Of a stretch of 64,000 nucleotides of DNA, positions 26,220 to 30,112 are shown piece after piece; the first letter of the stretch is position 1; every line of letters starts with the position of its first letter. The position numbers were made by a program, and so were the translations under genes. The stretch is from Sediminihabitans luteus (GTDB taxonomy: Bacteria; Actinomycetota; Actinomycetes; Actinomycetales; Cellulomonadaceae): the NCBI RefSeq assembly GCF_002797595.1, contig NZ_PGFE01000001.1:62001-126000 (forward strand). The letters run 5' to 3'. The notes beneath the pieces were generated by a model that was not told the origin of the DNA, did not search any database, and saw only the letters and a program-made list of their open reading frames with translations.

Positions 26220-27260
26220 TCAGGCGTCGGCGGTCTGCGCGGCGTCCGCCGTCCGACGCAGGGCCGCCAGGATCCCCTCGGCCGTGAGCGAGCCGACGAC
26301 GGTCCCGGCGTCGTCGACCACGGGCACGCGGCCCGTGGCGCGCGACGAGAGCGCCGCGATGGCCTCGAACGCCGTGGTAAGCGTCGACCCGAGGGTCACG
26401 GGCTCGGGCGCGGGCTCGACGACGCGGTCGGCCGGTTCGAGGTCCTCGCGCTGCACGGTCGCGAGCGAGAGCATCCGCACGGGCGCGCCCTCGCCGATGA
26501 ACTCCCGCACGGGGTCGCTCGCGGGGTGCGCGAGCACCGTGAGGGGCTCGGCGAGCTGCTCGAGGTGCCCGCCCACGCTGAAGACCGCGACACGGTCGCC
26601 GAGCTGCACGGCCTCCTCGATGTCGTGCGTGACGAACATGACGGTCGTGCCGACCTCCTGCTGGATGCGCCGGAACTCGGCCTGCAGGCGCCGTCGACCC
26701 GCGGGGTCGACCGCCCCGAACGGCTCGTCCATGAGCAGCACGGGCGGGTCGGTCGCGAGCGCGCGCGCGACGCCGACGCGCTGGCGCTCGCCGCCCGAGA
26801 GCTCGTGCGGGTAGCGGCGCGCGTACGTGTCGGGGTCGAGACCGACCAGGGCGAGCAGCTCGGCGGTGCGAGCCGCGGTCCGTTTCTTGTCCCAGCCCAG
26901 CAGGCGCGGGACCGTGCCGACGTTCTGCCCGACGGTCCGGTGCGGGAACAGCCCGACGTTCTGGATCACGTACCCGATGCGTCGGCGCAGCGCGACGGGG
27001 TCGGCGTGCGTCACGTCGGTGCCCTCGAGCAGGATTCGCCCGCCGGTCGGCTCGACGAGCCGGTTCGCCATGCGCAGCGTGGTCGACTTGCCGCAGCCCG
27101 ACGGACCGACGAGCGCGAGCAGCTCGTGCTCGCGCACGTCGAGCGAGAGCTCGTGGACGGCGACCGTGCCGTCCGGGTAGACCTTGCGGACGGCGTCGAA
27201 CTCGATGACGGGCGTACCGACGGGCGAGCTGGCGGGCGGGCTGACGGTCTCGGCAGGCAT
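26220..27260 (-). CDS. opuCA: Glycine-betaine/proline-type ABC ATPase with CBS domain
   Basis: A 346-residue OpuCA/ProV-type ATPase: Walker A GPSGCGKST, Q-loop VIQNVGLFPHRTV, signature LSGGERQRVG, Walker B VLLMDEPFGAVDP and His switch VTHD. The C-terminal 90 residues contain a CBS-like segment (ATGRVPVVDDAGTVVGSLT), which in this family responds to ionic strength or nucleotides. It is transcribed away from the two permease genes, separated by 78 bp. TAGCGT (27268-27273, minus strand) ends 7 nt before the ATG. Confidence 0.92.
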   Translation of the reverse strand: MPAETVSPPASSPVGTPVIEFDAVRKVYPDGTVAVHELSLDVREHELLALVGPSGCGKSTTLRMANRLVEPTGGRILLEGTDVTHADPVALRRRIGYVIQNVGLFPHRTVGQNVGTVPRLLGWDKKRTAARTAELLALVGLDPDTYARRYPHELSGGERQRVGVARALATDPPVLLMDEPFGAVDPAGRRRLQAEFRRIQQEVGTTVMFVTHDIEEAVQLGDRVAVFSVGGHLEQLAEPLTVLAHPASDPVREFIGEGAPVRMLSLATVQREDLEPADRVVEPAPEPVTLGSTLTTAFEAIAALSSRATGRVPVVDDAGTVVGSLTAEGILAALRRTADAAQTADA

Positions 27261-27338: not shown

Positions 27339-27998
27339 ATGTCGTCCAACCCCTGGTTCTCGTGGGACTACGTGCAGACCAACTGGGACGACATCTCGGC
27401 CCGGCTCGTCGAGCACACGACGCTCACGATCGAAGCCGTCGTCATCGGGTTCGTCATCGCGCTGCCGCTCGCGGCGCTCGCCGCGAACGTGCGCTGGCTC
27501 TCGGGCGCGATCATCGGCACCGCGTCGGTGCTCTACACGATCCCGTCGCTCGCGCTGTTCGCGATCCTCGCGCCGATCCTCGGGATCGGGCGCACGCCCG
27601 TGCTGGTCGGGGTCGTGGTGTACGCGTTGCTCGTCATGATCCGCAACACCGTCGCGGGGCTCGCGGGCGTCGACCCGGACGTGGTCGACGCCGCGCGCGG
27701 TCTCGGCTACGGGCGCGCGCGGTTGTTCTGGACCGTCGAGATGCCCAACGCCCTGCCCGGTGTGATCACGGGCCTGCGCCTGGCGACCGTGTCGACGGTC
27801 GCGCTCGTGACGGTGGGCGTGGTGGTCGGGTACGGCGGGCTCGGCCAGCTCATGTTCCGCGGGTTCCAGACGTTCTACCGGGCCGAGATCGTGACGGCGA
27901 CCCTGCTGTGCGTGCTGCTCGCGCTCGTGCTCGACCTGCTGCTGTGGGCGCTGGGTCGGGCGATGCAACCGTGGCTGCGGACGAGGAGCGTGGCATGA
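27339..27998 (+). CDS. opuCB: Osmolyte ABC permease 1
   Basis: A 219-residue inner-membrane permease with six hydrophobic helices and the coupling segment GVDPDVVDAARGLGYGRARLFWTVEMPNALPG. It belongs to the OpuCB/OpuCD (ProW-type) family. TACGTT at 27326-27331 is 7 nt before the ATG, so it begins a leaderless message divergent from the ATPase gene. It overlaps the next permease by 4 nt. Confidence 0.9.
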   Translation: MSSNPWFSWDYVQTNWDDISARLVEHTTLTIEAVVIGFVIALPLAALAANVRWLSGAIIGTASVLYTIPSLALFAILAPILGIGRTPVLVGVVVYALLVMIRNTVAGLAGVDPDVVDAARGLGYGRARLFWTVEMPNALPGVITGLRLATVSTVALVTVGVVVGYGGLGQLMFRGFQTFYRAEIVTATLLCVLLALVLDLLLWALGRAMQPWLRTRSVA

Positions 27999-28738
27999 GC
28001 ACGATCGACGACGCACTGGTCTGGCTCAACGACCCGTACAACTGGACCGGCCCGGGCGGCGTGCTCGAGCTCGGCGCCGAGCACCTGCGCATGACGGCCG
28101 CCGCGGTGGGCATCGCGGCGGTGCTCGCGCTGCCGCTGGGCGTCTGGCTCGGGCACACGGGCCGCGGCGCGGGCGTGACGATCCTCGTGGCGAACTCGAC
28201 CCGGGCCGTGCCGACGTTCGGGATCATCCTGATCCTCGCCACGACCGGGCTCTTCGGCAACGGTGCGGCGATCATCGCGGCCGCGGTGTTCGCGTTCCCG
28301 GTGATCCTGGCGAACACGTTCACGGGCGTGCACGGCGTGGACCGCGACGTGCGCGACGCCGCGCGCGGCATGGGCATGTCCGGGCTCAGGATCGTGGGCC
28401 TCGTCGAGCTGCCGCTCGCGGTACCCCTCATCGCCGCGGGCCTGCGCACCACGATCGTCCAGGTCGTCGCGACGATCCCCCTGGCCGCGGTCGCGGGCGG
28501 CGGCGGCCTCGGGCAGATCATCAACTTCGGCATCGGCAACCAGCGGTACGGGCAGGTGCTCGCGGGCGGCCTGATCATCGCGGCGCTCGCGCTCGTGATC
28601 GACCTGCTGCTGGGCCTGGTCCAGCGCGCGGTCACGCCGTCGTACCTCGACGCCCCGCGCGGGGGTCGGCGCCGACGTCGGACGCCGCAGCCGGGCCCGG
28701 CTCGCCCCGTGCCCGCCGGCGAACCCGGACGTCCGTGA
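27995..28738 (+). CDS. opuCD: Osmolyte ABC permease 2
   Basis: A 247-residue permease paralogous to the preceding one, with the coupling loop GVDRDVRDAARGMGMSGLRIVGLVELPLAVPL and about six helices. The final 30 residues are a basic, Pro-rich cytoplasmic tail not shared with its partner. Together the two form the transmembrane channel of the system. Confidence 0.9.
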   Translation: MSTIDDALVWLNDPYNWTGPGGVLELGAEHLRMTAAAVGIAAVLALPLGVWLGHTGRGAGVTILVANSTRAVPTFGIILILATTGLFGNGAAIIAAAVFAFPVILANTFTGVHGVDRDVRDAARGMGMSGLRIVGLVELPLAVPLIAAGLRTTIVQVVATIPLAAVAGGGGLGQIINFGIGNQRYGQVLAGGLIIAALALVIDLLLGLVQRAVTPSYLDAPRGGRRRRRTPQPGPARPVPAGEPGRP

Positions 28739-28887: not shown

Positions 28888-29913
28888 ATGAAGACCACAC
28901 GCACGTCCCGCTCGGCCGCCGTCCTCGCGACCGCGGCCGTCCTCGCCCTCCTGACCGCGTGCGGCGACTCCGGCTCGTCCGGCACGGGCGGGGGTGCCAC
29001 CGCGTCGTCCGACGGCGGCGAGGCCGCCGCGACCTGCGAGGCCGTCCCGGGCGACGAGCTCGTGGTGCTCGAGGACGACAAGAACCTGCAGACCGTCGAC
29101 AACATCATCCCCGCGGTCAACGCCGCCGCGATCGAGGGCGACGACGCGATCCTGCCGCTGCTCAGCAGCGTCTCGGAGGCGCTCGACACCGACAAGCTCA
29201 TCGCGCTCAACAAGGCCGTCGACGTCGAGCGCGAGAGCTCCAAGGACGTCGCCGCGCAGTTCGTCGCCGACGAGGGCCTCGCGTCCAAGGACCAGCCGGG
29301 CGACGGCACGGCCGTCGTCGTCGGGGCGGGCAACTTCTCGGAGAGCAGCACGCTCGCCGAGATCTACGCCGCGGTGCTGACCAGCGCCGGGTACGACGCG
29401 AGCACGCAGACCATCGGCAACCGCGAGACGTACCTCCCGGCGCTCGAGGACGGCACGCTGACCGTCGTCCCCGAGTACGTGGGCACGCTCACCGAGTTCA
29501 TCAACAAGGCCGAGAACGGTGCGGACGCCGAGACTCTCGCGAGCAGCGACCTCGACGCGACCGTCGACGCACTGACCACGATCGGCGAGACCGTCGGCCT
29601 CACGTTCGGTACCGCGTCGCCCGCGCAGGACCAGAACGCGTTCGCGGTCACGAAGGGCTTCGCCGAGGCGAACGACCTGACGACGCTCTCCGACCTCGCC
29701 GAGGCGTGCGGTGGCGTGATCCTCGGCGCCGGCCCCGAGTGCACCGAGCGGCCCTTCTGCCAGCCGGGCCTCGAGGAGACCTACGGGATCGACGTCGCGT
29801 CGTTCGAGGCGCTCGACGCGGGCGGCCCGCTCACCAAGACCGCGCTGCAGCAGGGCAAGATCACCCTCGGCCTCGTCTTCTCCTCGGACGGCCAGCTCAG
29901 CACCGACGCCTGA
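28888..29913 (+). CDS. opuCC: Glycine-betaine-type binding lipoprotein, apparently circularly permuted
   Basis: A 341-residue secreted lipoprotein (lipobox LLTAC, Cys 25). The segment order is unusual. Residues about 56-132 (DELVVLEDDKNLQTVDNIIP ... VAAQFVADEG) correspond to the C-terminal part of ordinary OpuCC/OsmF proteins. Residues about 141-341 (VVVGAGNFSESSTLAEIY ... GLVFSSDGQLSTDA) correspond to their N-terminal lobe and hinge, stopping just where LVVLEDDK would normally continue. All structural parts seem present, so a functional permuted protein is more likely than a broken one. Context says it serves OpuCA-CB-CD for osmolyte uptake. Confidence 0.85.
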   Translation: MKTTRTSRSAAVLATAAVLALLTACGDSGSSGTGGGATASSDGGEAAATCEAVPGDELVVLEDDKNLQTVDNIIPAVNAAAIEGDDAILPLLSSVSEALDTDKLIALNKAVDVERESSKDVAAQFVADEGLASKDQPGDGTAVVVGAGNFSESSTLAEIYAAVLTSAGYDASTQTIGNRETYLPALEDGTLTVVPEYVGTLTEFINKAENGADAETLASSDLDATVDALTTIGETVGLTFGTASPAQDQNAFAVTKGFAEANDLTTLSDLAEACGGVILGAGPECTERPFCQPGLEETYGIDVASFEALDAGGPLTKTALQQGKITLGLVFSSDGQLSTDA

Positions 29914-29964: not shown

Positions 29965-30004
29965 ACGACGCCCTCGCCCCGGTTCTCCGGGGCGAGGGCG
30001 TCGT
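29965..30004. terminator. Bidirectional terminator between opuCC and the disulfide reductase gene
   Basis: A perfect 18-bp stem (ACGACGCCCTCGCCCCGG and complement) with a TTCT loop, placed between convergent genes. Confidence 0.85.
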
Positions 30005-30008
30005 CGTC

Positions 30009-30112
30009 GGTGCTCGTCGTCGGTGCTCGTCGTCGGTGCTCGTCGTCGGTGCTCGTCGTCGGTGCTCGTCGTCGGTGCTCGTCGTCGGTGCTCGTCGTCG
30101 GTGCTCGCCGTC
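30009..30112. repeat. 13-bp tandem repeat array, 8 copies
   Basis: Eight head-to-tail copies of GGTGCTCGTCGTC, seven identical and the last with one change, directly after the terminator. The 13-bp unit does not preserve a reading frame and the array lies outside genes. Confidence 0.95.

Follow-up and report, generated by a model that had tools for sequence, protein, structure and literature searches.

The window, by which we mean the whole 64,000-nucleotide stretch of DNA that was analysed, encodes a 341-residue lipoprotein that is a true circular permutation of the OpuC/ProX/OsmF-type substrate-binding proteins (SBPs). The order of its two homologous parts is swapped relative to canonical proteins, this derived order is conserved among homologues, the operon is shared with canonical-order relatives, and two extra cysteines, Cys50 and Cys274, co-occur perfectly with the permutation. 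We consider it likely that the gene encodes a functional lipid-anchored SBP serving an OpuC-type ABC importer, that its permutation took place in an ancestral actinobacterium, apparently once, while the operon stayed unchanged, and that the hinge lost in this way was re-tied by a Cys50–Cys274 bond. The cysteine pair accompanying the permutation is the most interesting part of this finding.

Gene organization and swapped chain order

Parts of the gene, in window coordinates, are as follows:

28888..29913, + strand: open reading frame for the permuted OpuC/ProX-type substrate-binding lipoprotein, 341 aa, ATG start (sequence, profile and PDB searches, model)
28888..28962, + strand: signal peptide and lipobox LTAC, acylated Cys at residue 25 (sequence)
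28963..29034, + strand: low-complexity tether, Gly/Ser/Ala-rich, residues 26-49 (sequence; variable among homologues)
29035..29037, + strand: Cys50 codon, 5 residues before residue 55 (50/50 permuted proteins and 14/14 further loci)
29059..29283, + strand: residues 58-132, homologue of the canonical C-terminal part (second half of lobe 1)
29284..29310, + strand: new linker from the old C-terminus to the old N-terminus, 7-10 residues among homologues
29311..29628, + strand: residues 142-247, homologue of the canonical N-terminal part (first half of lobe 1), stopping at the one hinge crossing that is left
29629..29898, + strand: lobe 2, residues 248-337, with the former second hinge, VFSSDGQL, at its end (alignments, including VIA to 1sw1 chain 6-200)
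29707..29709, + strand: Cys274 codon in EACGG context, probable disulfide partner of Cys50 (50/50 permuted, 0/20 canonical; DSSP change on truncation)
29740..29760, + strand: Cys285...Cys291 (CTERPFC), probable older disulfide (conserved in permuted and close canonical relatives)

Two independent search methods bear out the natural circular permutation that an earlier note on this DNA had claimed. A phmmer search against the PDB aligned query residues 142-309 with residues 7-170 of AfProX (1sw1) and residues 56-132 with 199-274 of the same chain, that is, in reversed order; for 4nd9, query 143-337 matched 8-206 and query 35-132 matched 188-285. The Pfam profile PF04069 (OpuAC) matched in two swapped stretches, with query 143-338 on profile positions 3-184 and the upstream stretch on 187-256, and its 129.2 bits against a curated cut-off of 21.2 place the protein in this family. 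Searches with a family profile returned the same swapped order with stronger scores, and whole-protein E-values (2.8e-37 for Pfam, 2e-17 for AfProX, and 3.7e-31 for the family profile) were far beyond chance. None of the PDB, Pfam, or family-profile searches placed residues 58-132 over the N-terminal lobe, the standard alignment that the earlier note had named as grounds for abandoning its claim. The C-terminal-type block that it recognized in the first part of the protein is real, though its LVVLEDDK motif starts at residue 58 and not at about 56; its description of signal peptide, lipobox, and operon as intact also stands, the lipobox cysteine being residue 25. A similar lipobox was seen in other permuted members. 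The permutation break lies inside the canonical link between SSD and LVVL, which spans exactly 7 residues in 20/20 canonical proteins, and both chain ends of the permuted proteins run past this link point.

Fold, lobes, and lipid anchor

The structure prediction that the earlier note had proposed was made with AlphaFold2 and 30 homologues as input, giving a confident two-lobe fold (pLDDT 91.9, pTM 0.85). In VIA-align comparisons, model residues 97-299 matched ProX and EgtUC (Z 11-13.5) as well as OpuBC, and residues 3-230 matched B. subtilis OpuAC (2b4l; Z 16.2, rmsd 4.3, 195 residues), with the matches to ProX/EgtUC and to OpuAC jointly covering the whole chain. By these matches (VIA Z 11-16), the predicted model has the two-lobe fold of type II binding proteins.

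Lobe 1 of canonical ProX is made of the N-terminal and C-terminal segments (type II fold; AfProX, Schiefner et al. 2004). Judged from the alignments, the permuted chain would run through lobe 1 (58-247) and then lobe 2 (248-337) with one backbone crossing, as against the canonical two of the ProX/OpuCC topology, the break falling in the second crossing. A cut in this second inter-lobe hinge would turn lobe 1 into one continuous stretch, and since the canonical N- and C-segments both lie in lobe 1, the lipid anchor would remain on lobe 1 by backbone. The suggestion that permutation moved the anchor to the other lobe must therefore be revised: it is the crossing count that changes, and any link from the anchor to lobe 2 would depend on the probable Cys50–Cys274 disulfide.

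Distribution and conservation

A scan of GTDB genomes yielded 43 loci, and after later loci had been added, the set came to 70 distinct proteins, of which profile searches with N-type and C-type segments assigned 50 to the permuted and 20 to the canonical order. Permuted proteins were found in Cellulomonas, Promicromonospora, Isoptericola, Oerskovia, Xylanimonas, Myceligenerans, Krasilnikoviella, Actinotalea, Georgenia, Luteimicrobium, Actinoplanes, Symbioplanes, and Blastococcus, as well as in several MAGs; these 50 distinct homologues, of the same-order kind that the earlier note had proposed to look for, span several actinobacterial families. Full-length permuted matches were present in 17/395 genomes of the class, most others matching in canonical pieces only, and in 75/121 genomes of the window's family with 0 internal stops (a hand count from the list); several permuted-form genomes of the family also carry a canonical relative. 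Comparison with the nearest relative gave dN 0.14 and dS 0.45, with both segments similar (NG86, rough). The shared order among homologues and dN below dS agree with the earlier view that the gene is not decayed.

One permuted gene, in a MAG titled Spirochaetaceae (L026), is nested among actinobacterial ones. Apparently the same 10,908-bp contig is listed in the window's class (G097), so the contig is probably actinobacterial.

Operon and origin of the permutation

The neighbouring features are as follows:

26220..27260, - strand: ABC ATPase of ProV/OpuCA type with CBS domain, divergent
27339..27998, + strand: permease 1 (BPD_transp_1)
27995..28738, + strand: permease 2 (BPD_transp_1), 4 nt overlap with permease 1
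29965..30004, + strand: 18-bp perfect GC-rich hairpin, probable operon transcription terminator (z = -6.25 for the 97-nt stretch)

A CBS ATPase, two permeases, and an SBP are thus clustered as in OpuC-type importers. This ATPase and permease set is common to permuted and canonical SBP loci, and the canonical L034, L035, and L038 have the same divergent ATPase beside the SBP. Because the closest canonical-order relatives share the operon, the permutation probably arose in place, and the occurrence of the same partner genes beside both SBP orders suggests that the change in order affected the SBP alone and left its partners as they were. The extension of both ends, together with the new 7-10-residue linker, fits a tandem duplication whose two ends were later trimmed; no fused double-length intermediates were present among the collected loci.

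Directly after the terminator-like hairpin, window positions 30001-30112 hold a tandem repeat with the 13-bp unit TCGTCGTCGGTGC (8.6 copies, 98% matches). An Rfam search gave no match, and a promoter scan was uninformative in this GC-rich DNA. The same genome encodes a ProX/OpuA-type binding protein (L044) in canonical order with typical Trp motifs; it is adjoined by a permease-like frame on contig C4, separate from the window's contig.

The tree was built from unpermuted columns with the Cys274 column excluded, and OpuAC was not among its sequences. We found that 49/50 permuted proteins group together inside canonical actinobacterial proteins, with canonical Chloroflexota outside. A long-branch MAG protein that is permuted and has both cysteines (L064) was placed elsewhere, and a long-branch canonical protein (L038) adjoined the permuted group. 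A single permuted clade was not rejected (p-AU 0.148), and when L064 was left out a branch with support 79 separated the permuted group from the rest. The permuted state is derived, apparently with a single origin in an actinobacterial ancestor, although L064 and L038 blur the claim of one origin.

Ligand pocket

The aromatic box of AfProX consists of Y63, Y111, Y190, and Y214, and its binding residues are listed in PMC10087775. Equivalents of AfProX Y63, D109, and R149 are kept in the permuted protein, those of Y63 and D109 each in 50/50 permuted and 20/20 canonical proteins. The Y111 equivalent is N in 50/50 permuted and 19/20 canonical proteins, the Y190 equivalent is F or L, and the Y214 equivalent is non-aromatic in 50/50 permuted proteins (V, T, A, or S, or D depending on the gap). 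An AfProX-type aromatic box is therefore incomplete, with two of its four residues replaced by non-aromatic ones, and the OsmF equivalog NF049931 scored 80 bits, below its cut-off of 400. Most of these changes are also found in the canonical sisters, so the pocket appears to be older than the permutation; given this likeness, both kinds of protein probably bind the same solute, which may be something other than glycine betaine. The label "glycine-betaine-type" given in the earlier note suits the fold but may not extend to the ligand, the aromatic box being partly replaced.

The cysteine pair

An equivalent of Cys50, exactly five residues before residue 55, and Cys274 were both present in 50/50 permuted proteins; Cys274 occurred in 0/20 canonical proteins, and Cys285/Cys291 in 70/70 proteins. 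The cysteine-pair idea had been set down before the later loci were fetched, and among these the pair was found in 14/14 permuted and 0/6 canonical ones, although L086 and L090, which are among the 14, seem to come from species counted earlier. Pooled, at least 62 permuted proteins carry both cysteines, and Cys274 is present in 0/26 canonical ones.

In the full AlphaFold2 model, DSSP reported residues 49 and 275 as isolated bridge residues. A control model without the N-terminal arm lost the bridges at G275 and S338, kept those at 247, 266, and 337, and had a pTM of 0.81 in place of 0.85. DSSP names no partners, so residue 49 could pair with 275, 338, or both; these changes fit a modelled N-terminal arm lying against lobe 2, beside Cys274. 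The genome has two VKOR genes, which makes extracellular disulfide formation plausible. Co-occurrence and the predicted secondary-structure changes make a Cys50–Cys274 disulfide likely, and we hold with moderate confidence that it substitutes for the lost hinge.

Cysteines of other kinds were also seen. Four of the 20 canonical proteins (L039, L041, L042, and L043, from Chloroflexota) have a different extra pair in lobe 2, at profile columns 172 and 191. The canonical relatives L073, L074, and L077 have a cysteine in the N-terminal tether; profile column 27 is Cys in 3/20 canonical proteins, perhaps these three, and this would point to another kind of N-terminal staple.

Proposed mechanism and alternative explanations

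We suggest that, once the second inter-lobe hinge had been cut to leave a continuous lobe 1, lobe 2, and a single crossing, Cys50 on the new N-terminal arm would bond Cys274 in lobe 2 and regain a second covalent tie between the lobes. The same bond would place the exit of the lipid tether next to lobe 2, and the permuted protein would still close on a small solute and hand it to the two permeases. The fuller proposal, that a disulfide staple replaces one peptide hinge, with the tether then leaving from lobe 2 and lobe closing perhaps responding to the extracellular redox state, is tentative, and we give it slightly under an even chance.

The strongest contender, scarcely less probable than its opposite, is that the permutation was selectively neutral: a tandem duplication lost its outer parts, leaving a protein equivalent in function to its canonical sisters, with cysteines that just mend a weakened fold. 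This overlaps with our preferred explanation and differs solely in denying a new function, and it is favoured by operon and pocket positions that are the same in permuted and canonical proteins. On the other side stands the missing double-length intermediate among the collected loci; long retention across many genera is unable to separate neutral from useful. We think it unlikely that Cys50 and Cys274 are not bonded to each other and that Cys50 forms a disulfide-linked dimer or takes another partner. Room for this is left by a pairing inferred solely from co-occurrence and secondary-structure changes; however, the two cysteines are found only jointly and only in permuted proteins, and the close canonical sisters, which lack the new pair, already have an invariant Cys285/Cys291.

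Descent from the permuted B. subtilis OpuAC lineage, instead of from OpuC/ProX-type proteins, is very improbable, even though OpuAC (2b4l) aligns across the new join with Z 16.2. The sequence is closest to canonical OpuC/ProX/OsmF types, the canonical actinobacterial sisters are ~50% identical, and hhalign of A1 against OpuAC gave a weak local match only. The breaks differ as well: residues 6-147 of OpuAC, whose sequence is identical to 2b4l (PDB check), correspond to Pfam 114-256 and place its break at ~113/114, versus 184/187 here, so the present protein is not a permutant of the OpuAC kind. Separate origins of OpuAC and the present group are most likely. Gene decay, a chimera, or an assembly error is ruled out by independent assemblies in which 50 distinct homologues share the order, the junctions, and a fixed Cys spacing, decay also being opposed by dN below dS.

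A permuted, disulfide-tied SBP would represent a natural cut of one Venus-flytrap hinge, kept in dozens of species beside ~50%-identical canonical sisters in the same operon. Such permuted/canonical pairs permit a direct test of whether two hinges are needed for binding-protein function, and of whether the exit point of the lipid tether matters for docking. For biosensor design they hint at a permuted binding protein in which a disulfide replaces a hinge.

Comparison with known systems

The permuted protein resembles ProX, OpuCC, OsmF, and EgtUC (PF04069; 1sw1, 4nd9, 4wep, 7txl) in the sequence match of both halves, in fold, and in its OpuC-type operon with a CBS ATPase; it differs from them in having the order swapped at the second hinge, Cys50 and Cys274 added, and the aromatic box only partly kept. 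Its canonical sisters in other Actinomycetota (L065-L069, L034, and L035) are ~50% identical and have the same pocket residues and the same operon (checked for L034 and L035), but they have the normal chain order and no Cys274.

The earlier note had left it undecided whether permuted members had been described before; they had, since CPSARST (2008) found B. subtilis OpuAC (2b4l) to be circularly permuted relative to ProX 1r9l and 1sw1 (PMC2395249), with another break point. OpuAC is likewise a naturally permuted lipoprotein of the same Pfam family in which the old C-terminus is joined to the old N-terminus, whereas its own break lies inside lobe 2 (helix/strand) and its ligand site is Trp-rich. 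By eye, the natural break of OpuAC appears to coincide with the Cys274 site of the permuted family, so the tether may leave near the same spot on lobe 2 in both.

TpMglB-2 (Tp0684) of Treponema pallidum, termed "type Ic", is a permuted type I binding protein (PMC4990184). It too is a tethered ABC-importer binding protein with a naturally permuted chain, but it has a type I sugar-binding fold, and its permutation raises the number of crossings to four, whereas here one crossing would be lost. No type I folds were among our structure matches, which by itself excludes nothing; the strong sequence and structure matches are all to type II betaine/choline/ergothioneine binders, and the PF04069 match argues against a type I or type Ic fold. 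Our literature search, for which subscription journals were mostly out of reach, found no description of the present permuted group. The group joins OpuAC and TpMglB-2 as another case of natural permutation in an ABC-importer binding protein; permuted relatives in the same protein family were already known, and what is new is the break site and the cysteine pair that accompanies it.
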